DNA from: an uncultured Flavobacteriaceae bacterium
GTDB lineage: Bacteria > Bacteroidota > Bacteroidia > Flavobacteriales > Flavobacteriaceae
DNA length: 64,000 bases
Direction: 5' to 3'
NCBI GenBank assembly: GCA_938029725.1
Contig: CALHGE010000002.1
Coordinates: 62,001 to 126,000 of the forward strand
The position numbers were made by a program, and so were the translations under genes. This document shows positions 3,814 to 9,717 of the stretch, one piece after another. The notes under the pieces were generated by a model that was not told the DNA's origin, searched no databases, and saw only the letters and a program-made list of their open reading frames with translations. Within the stretch, counting starts at the first letter, position 1. Every line of letters starts with the position of its first letter.

Positions 3814-4263
3814 ATGAGCTTACAACAACAAGTAATGGAAAAGATGAAGCTAGCAATGAAGGCGAAAGACAAAGTAGCTTTAGAATCACTGCGAGCTATT
3901 AAATCTGCTTTGTTGTTGATGCAAACCGAATCTGGTTCGGGGGATGATATTAGCGAAGAAGTTGAGGTGCAGCTGGTCCAAAAATTGGTAAAACAACGTA
4001 AGGATAGTGCTTCGATATTTATTGAACAAGGAAGAAACGATCTAGCGGAACCAGAGTTGGCTCAAATAGCGGTTATTGAACAGTTTTTGCCAGATCAGTT
4101 GGGTGAAGCTGAGATTGAGAAAGTAGTTCTCGATATTATCGCAGCTACTGGTGCTGAAGGAATGAAAGATATGGGAAAAGTTATGGGAATGGTTTCCAAA
4201 AAATTAGCAGGTCAAGCTGATGGGAAAACGATTTCTACTATAGTAAAAAGTAAATTGGTATAA
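3814..4263 (+). CDS. GatB/YqeY domain-containing protein
   Basis: A 149-residue protein matching the YqeY family along its whole length. It has the N-terminal helical part (MSLQQQVMEKMKLAMKAKDK...LRAIKSALL), the segment LVKQRKDSASIFIEQGRNDLAEPE, and the C-terminal LPDQLGEAEIE plus GKVMGMVSKKLAGQADGK. The family is related to the tRNA-binding tail domain of GatB, the amidotransferase subunit that makes Gln-tRNA or Asn-tRNA. Free-standing YqeY proteins have no firmly established role, so tRNA binding is an inference. The gene sits alone between the ftsZ terminator and tRNA-Arg, with its own upstream T-rich region. Confidence 0.93.
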   Translation: MSLQQQVMEKMKLAMKAKDKVALESLRAIKSALLLMQTESGSGDDISEEVEVQLVQKLVKQRKDSASIFIEQGRNDLAEPELAQIAVIEQFLPDQLGEAEIEKVVLDIIAATGAEGMKDMGKVMGMVSKKLAGQADGKTISTIVKSKLV

Positions 4264-4316
4264 GAATTAAGGTTTCAACATAAAACTTAATTTTGAGTAC
4301 TGATTACAAAAATTAA

Positions 4317-4390
4317 GGCCGCGTGGCGCAACTGAATAGCGCATCAGATTTCGGCTCTGAGGGTTGGGGGTTTGAATCCCTTCGCGGTCA
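4317..4390 (+). tRNA. tRNA-Arg (anticodon UCG)
   Basis: A 74-nt cloverleaf can be folded by hand. The acceptor stem is GGCCGCG/CGCGGTC (one G-U pair), the D arm GCGC-AACTGAATA-GCGC, and the anticodon arm TCAGA-TTTCGGC-TCTGA. The variable loop is GGGTT and the T arm GGGGG-TTTGAAT-CCCTT, with discriminator A. Anticodon positions 34-36 read TCG, which decodes CGA (Arg). CCA is not encoded. A terminator hairpin starts 2 nt after the gene. A truncated second copy lies about 380 nt downstream. Confidence 0.93.
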
Positions 4391-4391
4391 C

Positions 4392-4423
4392 AAAAAGGGT
4401 TTTGCTTTAGCAAGACCCTTTTT
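4392..4423 (+). terminator. Terminator after tRNA-Arg
   Basis: Inverted repeat AAAAAGGGT-TTTGC / GCAAG-ACCCTTTTT with a 4-nt loop (one mismatch), directly behind the tRNA. Confidence 0.75.
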
Positions 4424-4441
4424 AACTTTAAAGTCAAATTC

Positions 4442-4702
4442 ATGTTTTATGTTTATGTTCTTCAAAGCTTAAAAGATACTAGATTATATAAGGGCCTAAG
4501 TCAAGATGTAGCAAAGCGATTGAAACAGCATAACAGAGGTGAGAATAGATCTACCAAAGGGTTTGTGCTATGGAAATTAGTATATCAAGAAGAATTTGAG
4601 ACAAGGGTAGCTGCTAGAGAACGAGAGAAATTCTTTAAATCTGGCGTAGGGCGCGAATTTTTACAAAGAACAATTGAATCATCTAAGGACGCAACTGAAT
4701 AG
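4442..4702 (+). CDS. Small GIY-YIG nuclease-family protein
   Basis: The 86-residue protein is essentially one GIY-YIG domain. It shows YVYVLQSLKD, then YKG in place of YIG (residues 16-19 region), the conserved Arg in DVAKRLKQH, the STKG turn, and the catalytic Glu in AAREREKFF. The pattern FKSGVGREFL is typical of the YhbQ/UPF0213-like branch. The family acts as metal-dependent endonucleases, and the substrate here is unknown. The gene lies between an intact tRNA-Arg and a truncated copy of it. Its last codons (Ala-Thr-Glu-stop) are written by the D-loop sequence of the truncated copy. This placement suggests an association with tRNA-gene recombination, which is an inference. Confidence 0.88.
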   Translation: MFYVYVLQSLKDTRLYKGLSQDVAKRLKQHNRGENRSTKGFVLWKLVYQEEFETRVAAREREKFFKSGVGREFLQRTIESSKDATE

Positions 4703-4773
4703 TACATCAGACCTGCCTGCTGGCAGGCAGGTTTCGGCTCTGAGGGTTGGGGGTTTGAATCTCTTCGCGGTCA
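4687..4773 (+). pseudogene. 5'-truncated tRNA-Arg remnant with an insertion in the anticodon loop
   Basis: From GCAACTGAATAG at 4691 to the discriminator A at 4773 the sequence repeats the upstream tRNA-Arg with only three substitutions outside the insert: two in the D-stem 3' strand and one in the T stem. The acceptor 5' strand and most of the D-stem 5' strand are missing, and 20 bp interrupt the loop between CATCAGA and TTTCGGC. It cannot fold as a functional tRNA. The 3' half, including the T arm and acceptor 3' strand, is almost perfect and is followed by its own terminator. Confidence 0.9.
4712..4731 (+). repeat. 20-bp palindrome (CCTGCCTGC-TG-GCAGGCAGG)
   Basis: Nine-bp arms around a 2-nt centre, inserted precisely in the anticodon loop of the tRNA remnant. 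GC-rich palindromes of this type recur between genes in flavobacterial genomes; I see only this full copy in the window, plus a half-site-like GCCTGCCTA near 35120. Confidence 0.85.
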
Positions 4774-4777
4774 CTTT

Positions 4778-4809
4778 AAAAAAAGCCTTGCTTATGCAAG
4801 GCTTTTTTT
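4778..4809 (+). terminator. Terminator after tRNA remnant
   Basis: Perfect stem AAAAAAAGCCTTGC / GCAAGGCTTTTTTT with loop TTAT. It resembles the terminator behind the intact tRNA only at the TTGC/GCAAG core. Confidence 0.88.
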
Positions 4810-5151
4810 AGTTTTAAATATAGGTTTATGGAGGTGTTATTCTGGTTTTTATTTTTTGATACAAATGAAATGGTACGCTTCTAGAAAAAGGAAGCACCAT
4901 TAAAATTTATATTTTAGAAATTTTAATTGCCATAAATTAATTTATATCCATTCCGTGTTTTCTGTTTTTAAGGAAAGAAAACCTGCTTATTATAGTATGA
5001 AATTTTTCGAAACTTGTTCGCTTATCACTTTCTGAAAAATAGAAATTATTTTCTGCTTATTTACGCTCAAGATAATTATTCCATTTTGGACTCAGAATTT
5101 TACAAAGCTTCCTGGCTCTGCTAATTGTATTGTTAGTCTTTGGCGATACAA
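4810..5151. other. Non-coding stretch between tRNA remnant and cphA
   Basis: About 340 bp of AT-rich sequence. I see no ORF with family features on either strand, and no convincing terminator for the minus-strand cphA gene that ends at 5152. Confidence 0.5.
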
Positions 5152-7800
5152 TTATATTTGCCGAGTTTCGGTCATTTCTGTTTTAAGCCGTTGTTCTTTC
5201 TCTTTTAGGCTTTTAACTAAATCAAGTGCCTCAGGTACTACGTCGCTGCAAAGTACAATGAGCGAACCATCTATTGCATTGTCTATCGCATAGTGTATGG
5301 CTTCCTTTTCTGAAGGTATAACGGTCAGTTTCTTGTCAGGGTATTTCGCTAAAATACCATCTTTCAACATTGCTATAAGTTCTTCTTCGCTCTTGCCTCG
5401 TAATTGTTTGTCTTGTCGAATTATAATCTCATCGAACATTTCGGCGGCAATGGCACCTATCTCATTGTTGTCTTCAATACGGCGGTCGCCTATGCCGGCA
5501 ACGATACCTACTTTTACGGTTGCGTCTAATTCATTGGTAAAATCTTGTAGCGCGCGCATTCCAGCAGGGTTGTGAGCGTAATCTAATAATATTTTAAACC
5601 TATCAAATTCAAAAAGGTTTAATCTACCTGGTGTCTGCGATGCCGATGGTAAAAAAGTCTGGAATGCAGCTTTCATATCTTCAATACTGATTCCTTTGAC
5701 ATTACAGGCAATTACAACAGGTAGAATATTCTGTATCATAAACTTGGCTTTTCCGCCATAGGTTAATGGAATGTGCTCTGCTTTCATGATCCGCATTTTC
5801 CAGCTTCCTCTGCATAGGGTTACATAACCATTTTCATAAATTGCTGTTATACCCCCTTTTCGCTGCAAGGCCTTAATTCTTGGATTATTTTCATCCATTG
5901 AAAAAAGTGCTACGTTGCATTCAAGAGACTTTCGCATCTCATATACCAAATCATCATCGGCATTTAAAATTGCATAACCATCAGGAAGCACCGTTTCAGG
6001 CACTACTGCCTTTACTCTCGCTAATTGTTCAATAGTATGAATGCCCTTCAATCCTAAATGATCTCCCGAAACATTGGTTACTATGGCAATGTCACAATGT
6101 GAAAATGCTAGTCCAGCGCGAAGCATACCGCCACGGGCACATTCTAAAACTGCAAAGTTGACCGTTGGGTCTCTTAAAACAAATTCAGCACTTTGAGGAC
6201 CTGTACAGTCACCTGTCATCAAGAGTCTGTTTTGTATGTAGACACCGTCGCTAGTAGTATATCCAACACGGTAGCCAGACATTTTAGCCATATGGGCCAT
6301 TAGTCTGCTGGTCGTTGTTTTACCATTTGTGCCAGTTACTGCGACAATTGGAATTTTACCTTTGTTACTCGATTGTGGAAATAGTTTGTCGACTACAGGT
6401 GCCGCAACATTTCTTGGCAAGCCTTTAGTAGGTGCTAAGTGCATACGGAACCCTGGCCCTGCATTTACTTCTAATACAGCTCCGCCGGTTTCAGAAAGTG
6501 GCTGGCTGATATCGGTGGTCATAATATCAATACCGCAAATATCAAGATCTATGATTTTTGAGATGCGCTCAGCCATCGCCACATTCGCAGGGTGAACAAT
6601 GTCAGTGATATCTTCTGCAGTTCCTCCGGTGCTTAAATTAGCGGTGTCTTTTAAAATCAACCGTTCACCATCAGGCAGTACTGAATCTAATTGATATCCG
6701 GCATCAGCAATGATTGTTTTTGTAAGTTCATTAATTGTTATCGCTGTGAGTTCCTTTTCATGGCCATAACCACGGCGAGGGTCTTTGTTTACCGCTGCAA
6801 CCAATGCTTCGATCGTAGATTTTCCATCTCCGATAACGTGGGCTGGTGTGCGCAATGCTGCTGCAATCAAAACGTTATTCACTACGAGCAGACGATAGTC
6901 TTCGCCTGTGATATACTTTTCAACGATGACGCGTTTAGACACCTCTTTGGCCGCGTTAAACCCTTTTAATGCTTCGTCATAAGTGTTAATATCTACGGTA
7001 ATTCCACGTCCGTGGTTACCATCAATTGGTTTGATTACTAATGGGTAGCCGACATAATTGCAAGCTGCCTCTAAGTTTCTTTCTCTACTTATAATATCAC
7101 CACGAGGTACTTCGACTTCTGCTTGTTCGAGTAGGTATTTAGTATCTTCTTTATCACAGGCAAGTTCTACACCAATACTGCTGGTTTCACTGGTAACAGT
7201 GGCTTGTATTCTTTTTTGATTCGCGCCATAACCCAATTGGCAGAGTGAATATTTATTTAAACGTATCCATGGAATTCCTCGTGATTCAGCCTCTTCGACG
7301 ATAGAACCAGTACTTGGACCTAGACGTTGTTCTTCTCGGAGTTCGCGCATTTGTTGAATGTCATTGTCCATATTGTAATCTTCCCCAGAAATTAGAGCTT
7401 CACAGATACGTACGGCAGCCTTCGCTGCATATTTACCTGCGTTTTCCTCTATATAGGAAAATACAACGTGGTACACCCCTTTTTCGCCATACCCACGGGT
7501 TCTGCCAAAGCCAGTATCCATTCCGGCTAAGGTTTGAATTTCAAGAGCGATATGTTCTATTACATGCCCCATCCAGGTGCCTTCATCTACTCTCATGAAA
7601 AATCCGCCTTCGCAGCCTTCAGAACAACGATGCGAATACATGCTCGGAAACATAGCTTTCAAGCGCTCTGAAAAACCAGTTACTTTATCAGTTGGACGTT
7701 CTTCCATGGCTTCTAAATCTAGAACCATTACAATTAATTTATGGCGACGTACCGACCAATAGTTCGGGCCGCGCATGGCATTTATTTCTCTAATTTGCAT
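5152..7800 (-). CDS. cphA: Cyanophycin synthetase
   Basis: Makes the storage polymer multi-L-arginyl-poly-L-aspartate from Asp and Arg with ATP. The 882 residues show the three expected parts: an N-terminal domain (1 to about 160, with MRGPNYWSVRRHKLIVM), an ATP-grasp domain (about 210-470, with PLVIKPIDGNHGRGI and the metal site EVNAGPGFRMH), and a Mur-ligase-like domain. The Mur domain starts with the P-loop GTNGKTTTSR at about 490-500 and contains DYAHNPAG. The length fits the family (about 870-900). ATG at 7800 is preferred over the GTG at 7809 because MQIREINAMRGPNYW is the usual start. The gene is divergent from the cyanophycinase gene with a 98-bp gap. Confidence 0.95.
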   Translation of the reverse strand: MQIREINAMRGPNYWSVRRHKLIVMVLDLEAMEERPTDKVTGFSERLKAMFPSMYSHRCSEGCEGGFFMRVDEGTWMGHVIEHIALEIQTLAGMDTGFGRTRGYGEKGVYHVVFSYIEENAGKYAAKAAVRICEALISGEDYNMDNDIQQMRELREEQRLGPSTGSIVEEAESRGIPWIRLNKYSLCQLGYGANQKRIQATVTSETSSIGVELACDKEDTKYLLEQAEVEVPRGDIISRERNLEAACNYVGYPLVIKPIDGNHGRGITVDINTYDEALKGFNAAKEVSKRVIVEKYITGEDYRLLVVNNVLIAAALRTPAHVIGDGKSTIEALVAAVNKDPRRGYGHEKELTAITINELTKTIIADAGYQLDSVLPDGERLILKDTANLSTGGTAEDITDIVHPANVAMAERISKIIDLDICGIDIMTTDISQPLSETGGAVLEVNAGPGFRMHLAPTKGLPRNVAAPVVDKLFPQSSNKGKIPIVAVTGTNGKTTTSRLMAHMAKMSGYRVGYTTSDGVYIQNRLLMTGDCTGPQSAEFVLRDPTVNFAVLECARGGMLRAGLAFSHCDIAIVTNVSGDHLGLKGIHTIEQLARVKAVVPETVLPDGYAILNADDDLVYEMRKSLECNVALFSMDENNPRIKALQRKGGITAIYENGYVTLCRGSWKMRIMKAEHIPLTYGGKAKFMIQNILPVVIACNVKGISIEDMKAAFQTFLPSASQTPGRLNLFEFDRFKILLDYAHNPAGMRALQDFTNELDATVKVGIVAGIGDRRIEDNNEIGAIAAEMFDEIIIRQDKQLRGKSEEELIAMLKDGILAKYPDKKLTVIPSEKEAIHYAIDNAIDGSLIVLCSDVVPEALDLVKSLKEKEQRLKTEMTETRQI

Positions 7801-7869
7801 AGTATTCACGGGTTTGGTTATAACAAGTGCATTCCGTTAAATATAAGGTATTTTTCATAACAATAAGCG

Positions 7870-7877
7870 TATTTTTG
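7870..7877 (+). promoter_or_regulatory. Putative -7 box (TATTTTTG) for cyanophycinase gene
   Basis: Matches the Bacteroidota -7 consensus TAnnTTTG and lies 21 bp before the chosen ATG. No clear -33 TTTG is seen. Confidence 0.45.
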
Positions 7878-7898
7878 CGTTTGAAAAACAAATTTTAC

Positions 7899-8759
7899 AT
7901 GCAGATTAAAGGAACATTAATACCTATTGGAGGAAACGAAGATAAAGGCGTTCAGGCTGATGAGACAAACACTCTTGAATTTATTGAAGAAGGTATTTTG
8001 GCCCATGTTGTTCAGGAAGCTGGTGGAATTGATTCCAAAATTGTGGTCATTCCAACCGCATCTAGTATTCCAATCGAAGTGGGTGAAAACTATATAGATG
8101 CATTCGAAAAATTAGGATGCAAAGACATCCATATATTACATATTTTAGAACCAAAAGATTCCGAAAAACCAAGTGCTATCGCTTTGATTAAAGAAGCGGA
8201 TTGTATTATGTTCTCAGGAGGTGATCAGTCGAAAATTGCCTTGAGAATTGGTGATTCATCTATTCATAAAATTTTGATAGACCGTTATCATAATGATGCT
8301 GGTTTTGTTATTGCCGGAACCAGTGCCGGGGCCATGGCAATGGCAACTGAAATGATTTCTGGCGGCAGTAGTACAGAAGCCTTTGTTAAAGGTGCTGTAA
8401 ATATGAGGAAAGGCTTAGGTTTGATACCTGAATTAACCATTGATACGCACTTTATTCAACGGGGTCGATTCGGGAGACTTTCAGAAGCTGTAGCGAAATT
8501 TCCTAAGTTATTAGGAATTGGCTTAGCAGAAGATACCGGACTTATCATTAAAAATGGAAATGAGTTCAAAGTGATCGGTTCAGGCATGGTGATAGTTTTT
8601 GATGGGCAAAAACTGGGTCATAACAATGAGAAAATATTGAAAGAAGGTACTCCGATGACGATGACCAACCTTACGGTGCATGTGCTCTCTAATAGTGACA
8701 GCTACAATATCGAAGCGCGTAAGGTTGATGTGTTGCCTTTGGATGCCCCTTTCATGTAG
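7899..8759 (+). CDS. cphB: Cyanophycinase
   Basis: Serine exopeptidase of family S51 that cuts cyanophycin into beta-Asp-Arg dipeptides. The 286-residue protein shows GTLIPIGGNEDKG at the start, the FSGGDQSKI segment, the nucleophile elbow IAGTSAGAMAMA, and DTHFIQRGRFGRL followed by GIGLAEDTGL. All of these are hallmark cyanophycinase segments. ATG at 7899 is chosen because family homology begins there; the upstream in-frame ATG at 7827 would add 24 unrelated residues and sits before the -7 box. It is divergent from cphA, and the isoaspartyl peptidase that would finish polymer breakdown follows convergently. No signal peptide is seen, so it is cytoplasmic. Confidence 0.95.
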   Translation: MQIKGTLIPIGGNEDKGVQADETNTLEFIEEGILAHVVQEAGGIDSKIVVIPTASSIPIEVGENYIDAFEKLGCKDIHILHILEPKDSEKPSAIALIKEADCIMFSGGDQSKIALRIGDSSIHKILIDRYHNDAGFVIAGTSAGAMAMATEMISGGSSTEAFVKGAVNMRKGLGLIPELTIDTHFIQRGRFGRLSEAVAKFPKLLGIGLAEDTGLIIKNGNEFKVIGSGMVIVFDGQKLGHNNEKILKEGTPMTMTNLTVHVLSNSDSYNIEARKVDVLPLDAPFM

Positions 8760-8784
8760 ATTACTTCTGTTTTGAGGCTAAAGT

Positions 8785-9717
8785 TTAATTGGTGTAAATT
8801 GAAATTTTCTCTTTCTCTCCAGATATTCTGCTAGCGCGATACATTCCCTCTGTGTTAAAAGGCATGGCAATATTACCTTTGGCATCAACGGCTATCAAAC
8901 CGCCGTCACCACCAATTTCTAGAATTCTCTTTTGAATAACTTCGCTAGCTGCTTCGGATAATGACATGCCTTTGTACTCCATTAAACACGAAACATCATA
9001 GGCAACCACGCCCTTGATAAAAAATTCGCCGCTACCTGTACAAGAAACTGCACAAGTTTTATTATTTGCATAGTTGCCAGCGCCTATCATTGGACTATCG
9101 CCAACGCGGCCATAGCGTTTGTTTGTCATTCCACCTGTCGATGTTGCTGCTGCGATGTTTCCATTTTGGTCGCAGGCTACGGCGCCAACCGTACCAAATT
9201 TTGAATCTTTTTTTAACGAATGATCAAGTTGAAAACTATCAGTGTCTTTGATTTCATTCCATTGTTGATACCGCAATTCATCAAAGAAATACGTTTTGTC
9301 TTCCAATGTATAGTCCAAAGACTTGGCGAATTTTAAGGCCCCTTCACCCGCTAAAAAAACATGTTCGCTTTTTTCCATCACATCTTTCGCTAATGTTATT
9401 GGGTTTTTAATTCCTGTAATTAAGGATACGGCACCAGCATTTAGGTCCTTTCCATCCATAATAGAGGCGTCCATTTCATGCGTTCCATCTGTGGTGAAAA
9501 CACTTCCTTTGCCGGCATTAAAGAGATAAGAATCTTCTAGCTCAACTACGGCTTTTGCCACAGCCTCTATTGCGGTTCCGTGGTTTTCTAAAATATGATA
9601 TGCTTTCGATAACGCATTTCGTAACGCATTTTTATAAGCGATTTCTTTTTCAGGAGTCATCATGCCTTTTATCAAAGTACCGGCTCCGCCATGTATGGCT
9701 AAAGAGAATTTATTCAT
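8785..9717 (-). CDS. Isoaspartyl peptidase / plant-type L-asparaginase
   Basis: Ntn-hydrolase that self-cleaves and hydrolyses isoaspartyl dipeptides. In a cyanophycin locus its natural substrate is probably beta-Asp-Arg (inference from context). The 310-residue protein has the N-terminal SLAIHGGAGT, the segment LFNAGKGSVFTTDGTHEMDASIMDG, and the autocleavage site FGTVGAVACD, with Thr176 as the new N-terminal nucleophile. The substrate loops TSTGGMTNKRYGRVGDSPMIG and TGSGEFFI follow. The gene overlaps the 3' end of the upstream reductase gene by 8 nt, so the two are likely translated from one mRNA. The length fits the family. Confidence 0.94.
   Translation of the reverse strand: MNKFSLAIHGGAGTLIKGMMTPEKEIAYKNALRNALSKAYHILENHGTAIEAVAKAVVELEDSYLFNAGKGSVFTTDGTHEMDASIMDGKDLNAGAVSLITGIKNPITLAKDVMEKSEHVFLAGEGALKFAKSLDYTLEDKTYFFDELRYQQWNEIKDTDSFQLDHSLKKDSKFGTVGAVACDQNGNIAAATSTGGMTNKRYGRVGDSPMIGAGNYANNKTCAVSCTGSGEFFIKGVVAYDVSCLMEYKGMSLSEAASEVIQKRILEIGGDGGLIAVDAKGNIAMPFNTEGMYRASRISGEKEKISIYTN

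Follow-up and report, generated by a model that had tools for sequence, protein, structure and literature searches.

How does a nuclease gene come to lie between an intact tRNA gene and a broken copy of the same tRNA? The question was raised by a locus in the window, the whole stretch of 64,000 nucleotides that was analysed. The window corresponds to G000:C2:62001–126000, and its genome measures 3.8 Mb. The locus (L001 of genome G000) contained, all on the forward strand, an intact tRNA-Arg gene, an ORF encoding a single-domain GIY-YIG nuclease of 86 amino acids (4442–4702; Pfam PF01541) and a partial copy of the tRNA-Arg, and these three parts, reported in an initial annotation of the sequence, were recovered by ARAGORN, Rfam and Pfam. 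A single tRNA was called, tRNA-Arg with the anticodon TCG, at 4317–4391 by ARAGORN and at 4317–4390 by Rfam (RF00005, 56.3 bits). The partial copy was described initially as extending from the D-loop to the 3' end. It did so, matching positions 11–75 of the intact tRNA, yet it was interrupted by a palindrome of 20 nt that had not been reported. Positions 11–32 of the tRNA were found at 4690–4711 and positions 33–75 at 4732–4774, and the palindrome CCTGCCTGCTGGCAGGCAGG (4712–4731) separated positions 32 and 33 at the border of the anticodon stem and loop. The copy differed from the intact tRNA by one substitution, at tRNA position 63, and the stop codon of the nuclease (TAG, 4700–4702) lay inside its D-loop.

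A terminator had been claimed after each tRNA copy. The second, a forward-strand hairpin at 4776–4811, 3' of the partial copy, was called by the terminator scan, whereas the first, a terminator-like hairpin on the same strand at 4392–4423 between the intact tRNA and the nuclease gene, was readable in the sequence but escaped the scan, possibly owing to a T run that takes part in the pairing of the stem. Hairpins like the first were seen by eye at the same place in other cassettes, and it was probably brought in by the cassette. The hairpin at 4776–4811 resembled, by eye, the nuclease-free site of genome G006 downstream of the T run, and is probably the terminator that the tRNA gene had originally. 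The ftsA, ftsZ and yqeY genes (Pfam) were present 5' of the window tRNA, and a tRNA-Arg gene was found behind yqeY in the genus genomes compared. A second cassette of the same genome (L002, G000:C67:1–1750) was found at a contig start; its nuclease gene preceded a palindrome-interrupted 3' piece of a tRNA, and its intact tRNA would be past the contig end.

Features of the GIY-YIG nuclease

The window ORF matched the Pfam GIY-YIG domain with 46.9 bits (cut-off 22.6). The Y5, Y16, R26, E62 and K66 residues were invariant in an alignment of 66 sequences, and the protein thus contained the catalytic domain with the conserved Y, Y, R and E residues by which the GIY-YIG superfamily is recognised. 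An alignment-based structure model (pLDDT 91.7) was used in place of a single-sequence model, which was poor (pLDDT 56.3). The nearest fold neighbour of the model was UPF0213 (1zg2, E 8.5e-4), followed by Slx1 (E about 0.004) and, weakly, I-TevI (E 0.1), and the best sequence neighbours were UPF0213 and small GIY-YIG proteins (PDB 1zg2 and 1ywl; E 0.0065 and 0.0084). UPF0213 and Slx1 contain a single GIY-YIG domain like the window nuclease, the matches being distant. Slx1 acts in host repair together with Slx4, and none of these proteins is known to be associated with tRNA. SegB, a phage enzyme considered below, is larger than one catalytic domain.

The median dN/dS was 0.07–0.29 in five nuclease groups (unsaturated pairs), which shows purifying selection; the Arg group of the window's form gave just three unsaturated pairs. 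Some nuclease copies contained internal stop codons, in the family search as well as in the phylum search. No intron family was present among the 15 Rfam matches of positions 4200–4900 of the window at E up to 1, and the locus is not a group I intron with a homing endonuclease, as Rfam found no self-splicing intron around the ORF.

Occupied and nuclease-free sites

YqeY was found in 13 of the 14 genus genomes. The cassette was present behind yqeY in three of these 13 (G000, G007 and G003), with two tandem nuclease genes at the site in G007 and with a cassette split over two contigs in G003. The other ten junctions of yqeY and tRNA-Arg (TCG) showed no GIY-YIG match in the available sequence. 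Eight of the ten nuclease-free sites were clean over 620 to 1413 bases, and the call for G004 was based on 144 bases after the tRNA. In G013 (L035), 17 nt from the 3' end of the tRNA recurred 148 bases downstream of the tRNA-Arg with no nuclease nearby; this scrap may be a relic of a lost cassette. With three occupied and ten nuclease-free sites, occupancy of the site therefore differs among the genomes of the genus, whether through gain, through loss or through both. The initial annotation had proposed a minimal unit, mobile or formerly mobile, and had set against it the vertical descent of one arrangement with no empty site; such descent did not hold in the genus, and the proposal was supported by the patchy presence at the orthologous site and by the position of the nuclease near tRNAs. 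As in homing genes, a defined site was occupied by the cassette in some genomes and not in close relatives, and the cassette showed a sporadic distribution together with signs of horizontal spread.

The window nuclease was 60–61% identical to the same-site copies of its own genus, and 68, 64 and 66% identical to the copies in G116, G049 and G079, which belong to three other genera. The host YqeY was 79% and 79% identical within the genus and 78, 67 and 61% identical to that of the same three genera. This conflict between nuclease and host points to gain, and the direction of the difference in the sequences is clear, though the proteins are short and the genomes few. With one protein of the family as the query, no relative was found in 50,697 phage records, in plasmids or in viral contigs, and carriage by any of these thus found no support.

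The intact tRNA beside the cassettes of G000 and G007 was identical to the tRNA of seven of the ten nuclease-free genus sites. The carrier allele combined a palindrome-split partial copy with an unchanged intact tRNA. Self-immunity through an altered tRNA sequence was not seen in the genus, and it follows that the tRNA carries no immunising sequence change, unlike what classical homing needs.

Two further observations were made at the occupied sites. In G007 (L013/L038; G007:C7, about 78824–79090), the first of the two tandem nuclease genes was found to hold an in-frame inverted tRNA-Arg fragment. In G003 (L033 and L007), two 5' partial tRNA-Arg copies with palindromes were present before the tRNA and a 3' copy was present after the nuclease, which places remnants on both sides of the tRNA when the two contig ends are read together.

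Association of the nuclease with tRNA genes

Nuclease matches (E up to 1e-8) were found in 82 of the 249 family genomes. An intact tRNA was present within 500 bp in 95 of the 111 family clusters, and within 150 bp in 89; these 111 are the fetched loci, and at least three listed match places, as well as any beyond the listing, were not among them. The tRNA was on the strand of the nuclease in 95/95. The chance expectation of a tRNA within 500 bp was about 0.9% before strand is considered (32 tRNAs in 3.8 Mb), and 0/13 of the weaker GIY-YIG genes of the window's genus had a tRNA within that distance. The arrangement of tRNA and nuclease is far beyond chance. Of the 16 clusters that had no nearby intact tRNA, five were in protein genes and nine, of which six were close to a contig end, showed tRNA pieces when inspected by eye. 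A partial copy of the same tRNA was found across the nuclease in 75 of the 104 testable loci (the 95 tRNA-adjacent clusters and nine genus loci), against 2.5% for a wrong-tRNA control; in the other 29 it was not found at the score used.

A second set was obtained with another query, chosen by sequence from phylum genomes with the window's family left out, and the phylum search gave nuclease matches in 149 of 392 genomes. The second set contained 64 loci, 24 returned as loci and 40 taken in list order. A tRNA was present within 500 bp in 59/64, on the same strand in 59/59, and a partial copy was found across the nuclease in 51/59, against 1.9% for a decoy. The five loci that had no nearby tRNA also showed tRNA or tmRNA pieces by eye. 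The expectation of the initial annotation that the GIY-YIG clade would recur within 500 bp of tRNA genes was thus confirmed inside and outside the family, and placement at random sites, which it had named as the contrary outcome, did not hold, all tRNA neighbours being on the strand of the nuclease. In a third, small set of named loci, 18 of 20 had a tRNA no more than 184 bp away, in every case on the same strand as the nuclease; this set included bins labelled Paceibacter, Parcubacteria, Kazan, Terriglobia and Deltaproteobacteria, in which misplaced contigs are possible, and all members labelled as other phyla came from metagenome bins.

The nearby tRNAs served 15 amino acids across all sets. 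Those found were Arg, Leu, Met, Ala, Asp, Asn, Phe, Val, Pro, Ser and Cys, to which the named bins added Lys, Thr, Glu and Ile. At L236 (G515:C7, 1124–1737), the target was tmRNA instead: the cassette directly followed a tmRNA gene, and a palindrome-split partial copy of the 3' end of the tmRNA was seen by eye after the nuclease. In a related protein-gene clade (L121, L130, L132 and L137, and also L136), the nuclease was located between two different 5' ends of epimerase-like genes, the target gene of L130 being an NAD-dependent epimerase (Pfam). The nuclease in this clade was bounded by short inverted repeats, ACC(C/T)GTGAAAT ... ATTTCACAGGT, and no palindrome of the cassette kind was seen, both as judged by eye. 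At L136, the nuclease appears, by eye, to split another small gene. Taken together, the family is large, and its cassettes seem to spread selfishly from one tRNA gene to another in Bacteroidota and probably in other bacteria as well. The cassettes of L088, L105, L114, L125, L135 and L146, among others, were located at or near contig ends, and their presence may be undercounted because assemblies may break at cassettes.

A host function would also account for a nuclease that is always on the strand of the tRNA and is under purifying selection, if the enzyme acted on tRNA, on tRNA genes or on invading DNA and the tRNA was adjacent for co-expression. We consider this highly improbable, as the nuclease was patchily present in both searches, some copies contained internal stops, arrays of nuclease genes occurred, and the palindrome-split partial tRNA copies would be left unexplained.

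Geometry of the cassettes and tandem arrays

Two geometries were found. The window's form, here form A, consisted of the intact tRNA, the nuclease and a 3' partial copy and was present in 28 of the 104 loci. In its mirror image, form B (76/104), a 5' partial copy was followed by the nuclease and then by the intact tRNA, and the nuclease frame often extended into the tRNA. This second geometry, the palindrome, the arrays and the breadth of the family go beyond what was initially annotated.

The intact tRNA and 3' fragment of form A look like attL and attR, and the locus could be read as a relic of an integrase-driven island with the tRNA as its attachment site. Such an origin is scarcely tenable. 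In form B, to which most loci belong, the order is reversed and the 5' partial copy comes first, upstream of the nuclease; only a few hundred bases separate the tRNA pieces, and the nuclease alone lies between them, which is too little for an integrase. No recombinase was found between the tRNA copies of the window, where the GIY-YIG ORF was accompanied only by frames of less than 60 amino acids, and the single-nuclease cargo noted initially was thereby borne out.

Two to eight nuclease genes were found in a row in 22 of the 111 family clusters, with the maximum of eight in L115, and at least two in a row in 21 of the 64 clusters of the second set. The periods of the arrays gave a unit length of about 300–450 bp. 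The arrays show that local duplication happens, and an ordinary duplication, in which part of a tRNA gene was copied and an immobile nuclease gene became trapped between the two copies, might be proposed for the whole arrangement. This is hardly plausible in view of the recurrence beside many tRNA kinds, tmRNA and protein genes, the nuclease-free sites and the conflict with host relatedness.

The origin of the partial copy was seen at L080. The intact tRNA of this locus was identical to that of the congener G080, whereas the 5' partial copy differed at 4 of 22 positions and was equal to the start of the tRNA at L057, in another genus. The partial copy therefore came with the cassette. A simple target-site duplication, or a displacement of the resident tRNA half, is contradicted at this locus as a general rule.

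The lineage of the nuclease predicted its target. On a tree of 112 nucleases, the target labels needed 23 changes against 67 when shuffled (0/200 shuffles as low), and the 14 Leu (CAA) nucleases formed one group with a support of 100. The tree was built from 73 columns, with many forks unresolved, and omitted the C-terminal columns, which can overlap tRNAs. It took 112 of 133 nucleases, the 21 with stops or of less than 70 amino acids being left out, and the labels epimerase and S23, as well as Met and Arg of loci that had no intact tRNA, were set by hand.

Palindromes of the cassettes

In form B, an insert at the 3' border of the D-loop was cleanly parsed in 44 of 75 loci, with none in the other 31, and 41 of the 44 parsed inserts folded better than shuffled sequences. 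The form-B inserts of at least 10 nt were located at tRNA positions 22–23 in 31 of 59, at positions 8–9 in 17 and at position 11 in five. Palindromes were found in the anticodon and T-loops too. When fixed junction windows of 40 nt were used, significant hairpins were present in 42/75 and 20/51 against 11% of random windows, a weaker signal than that of the parsed D-loop inserts. Palindromes of many other sequences were found outside the family. In the window's own genome, CCTGCCTGCTGGCAGGCAGG is not a genome-wide repeat, as one other site was found within 2 mismatches.

The similarity of the palindromes followed the identity of the nucleases within one tRNA kind (Mantel r 0.72, p 0.0005, 148 pairs), and the same was found for the Arg (TCG) loci alone (r 0.72, p 0.001, 13 loci). 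In this test, 11 of the 44 parsed palindromes, which had no clean nuclease ORF, were left out, and the form-A palindromes of L001, L007, L043, L044 and L045 were added by hand; L006 was not included. Five Arg (TCG) cassettes, whose nucleases fell among the Ala and Arg (ACG) groups, contained CCCGCCCG-like palindromes as in those groups, and the eight other Arg (TCG) cassettes contained the CCTGCCTG type. Across the 14 loci of the Leu group, the palindrome had a mean identity of 94%, compared with 68% in the ORF and 58% in the spacer. The palindrome is best seen as a part of the cassette because its sequence follows the nuclease and not only the tRNA.

Such tracking would be expected if the GIY-YIG enzyme binds the palindrome and moves it together with the gene, much as REPs are bound by RAYT transposases, the dispersed palindromes being non-autonomous copies. 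The exact palindrome CCTGCCTGCCGGCAGGCAGG was present in 38 of the 82 genomes with a nuclease against 12 of the 167 others (Fisher p 2e-12), and 13 of the 14 genomes with five or more copies had a nuclease, which, together with the high conservation of the Leu palindromes, speaks for this transposition. These genome counts include the copies within cassettes and are not corrected for host relatedness, and recognition of the palindrome by the enzyme is not implied, because linked inheritance alone yields the same pattern. Dispersed copies also occurred where no matching nuclease was found: G077 contained 11 dispersed Leu-type palindromes and its three nuclease matches were Arg cassettes, and G254 contained four with no nuclease match. 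Insertion at hairpin tips was not supported as a rule for the dispersed palindromes, since 32 sites, a few of them inside cassettes, showed no significant preference for hairpin loops (p 0.09). The protein-gene clade, in which no such palindrome was seen by eye, also stands against transposition, and we regard it as unlikely.

Proposed mechanism

As read from the sequences compared, the cassette is quite probably a selfish homing element of minimal size that keeps the tRNA it targets complete, with a mode of action like that of phage SegB and of mobile ORFs in fungal mitochondria. The support observed for homing consists of the anatomy, the clade-specific targets, the patchy distribution in conflict with the hosts, the nuclease-free sites, the arrays and the purifying selection. 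By analogy, the cassette would work like a free-standing homing endonuclease gene with a presumed cleavage activity. The element would comprise one small GIY-YIG gene and a palindrome-split partial copy of its target tRNA; it would directly adjoin the intact tRNA gene on the upstream or the downstream side, and the tRNA would thus survive. In a first step, the nuclease would cut a tRNA gene of the kind it targets, and the break would probably fall close to where the palindrome sits in the partial copy; the candidate cut points are 22^23 in the D-loop for the commoner form and 32^33 at the anticodon stem/loop border for the window's form. The break would then be repaired from the cassette-bearing chromosome, with the tRNA sequence as homology, whereby the nuclease, the palindrome and the spare tRNA piece would be copied in and one complete tRNA kept. 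The palindrome may keep the spare copy from functioning as a tRNA, and perhaps also from being cut or from recombining with loss of the cassette. The complete tRNA may be cut again, leading to a tandem pile-up of units, and the arrays would be explained because the intact tRNA is unchanged. Since the partial copy at L080 is foreign, the element would not, in general, displace the resident tRNA half. The spread by tRNA-end homology that was suggested initially would fit the partial copies and the tandem arrays.

A further-reaching reading is possible, though we hold it as rather doubtful. The nuclease of 80–90 amino acids and a cognate palindrome would here form a two-part machine and a new class of minimal mobile element, with the dispersed palindromes as its non-autonomous offspring. 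Each nuclease would have a single structured-RNA gene as its target, either one tRNA kind or tmRNA; the palindrome would mark the spare copy and disarm it, and the complete target that is always kept would permit re-entry and stacking. If this were true, some bacterial palindromic repeats would gain a mobilising enzyme.

Comparison with known systems and significance

Among the matches listed in a search of open-access full texts, none described chromosomal GIY-YIG cassettes that combine partial tRNA copies with palindromes, and the cassette family is apparently undescribed. A close counterpart, and an experimental parallel for the proposed homing, is SegB of the phages T4 and T6, a free-standing GIY-YIG homing endonuclease that cuts in tRNA genes; segB is co-located with tRNA genes of many kinds, and in phage T6 it builds tandem tRNA-segB arrays through microhomology between the tRNA 5' end and the gene 3' end (PMC13096335). 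It shares with the cassettes the GIY-YIG enzyme, the neighbourhood of tRNA genes and the tandem repeats, whereas it belongs to phage genomes, and a palindrome-bearing partial tRNA copy is not described in the cited passages (PMC13096335). The SegB motif given there, RAWTSGAAC, would read like a tRNA T-loop when reverse-complemented.

Mobile endonuclease ORFs of fungal mitochondria were reported in atp6, atp9, cox2 and nad3 of Glomus and in atp6 of Allomyces (PMC3630166). As in the cassettes, the essential target gene stays whole, the element bringing a substitute end with the native end beside it; unlike the cassettes, the targets are protein genes and the enzyme in Glomus atp6 is of the LAGLIDADG type, and neither tRNA targets nor palindromes are described in the passages cited (PMC3630166). 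The protein-gene clade, with its two different 5' ends, resembles these ORFs that bring a substitute gene end (PMC3630166). The REP/RAYT systems contain short dispersed palindromes tied to a nuclease gene, a trait that the cassettes may share, whereas RAYT is a tyrosine (HUH) transposase (PMC3733652) and the cassettes have a GIY-YIG enzyme with palindromes in partial tRNA copies. The window nuclease does not belong to RAYT/REP, since Pfam found GIY-YIG only and no HUH transposase. There is a real chance that the pair of nuclease and palindrome is something new.

The cassettes sit at tRNA and tmRNA genes needed by cells, and they suggest how a selfish gene can occupy an essential RNA gene with neither an intron nor an integrase. 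As target choice follows the nuclease clade, they offer a natural collection of small nucleases whose tRNA-gene targets can be predicted. In genome annotation, the cassettes may be the source of some small GIY-YIG proteins whose C-termini derive from tRNA and may explain some tRNA pseudogenes and palindromic repeats.

A more distant GIY-YIG class was found at L003 (G000:C70) and L026 (G007:C28), not near tRNAs, with other palindromic repeats adjoining; these were of the CTTCGGCTACGCTCAG type in tandem and of the form ATTCCCGC...GCGGGAAT on both sides. Further along the window, at 5152–9717, ORFs with Pfam matches to the cyanophycin synthase N-terminal domain, Mur ligase, peptidase S51 and asparaginase 2 were found, which probably form a group for the synthesis and breakdown of cyanophycin.
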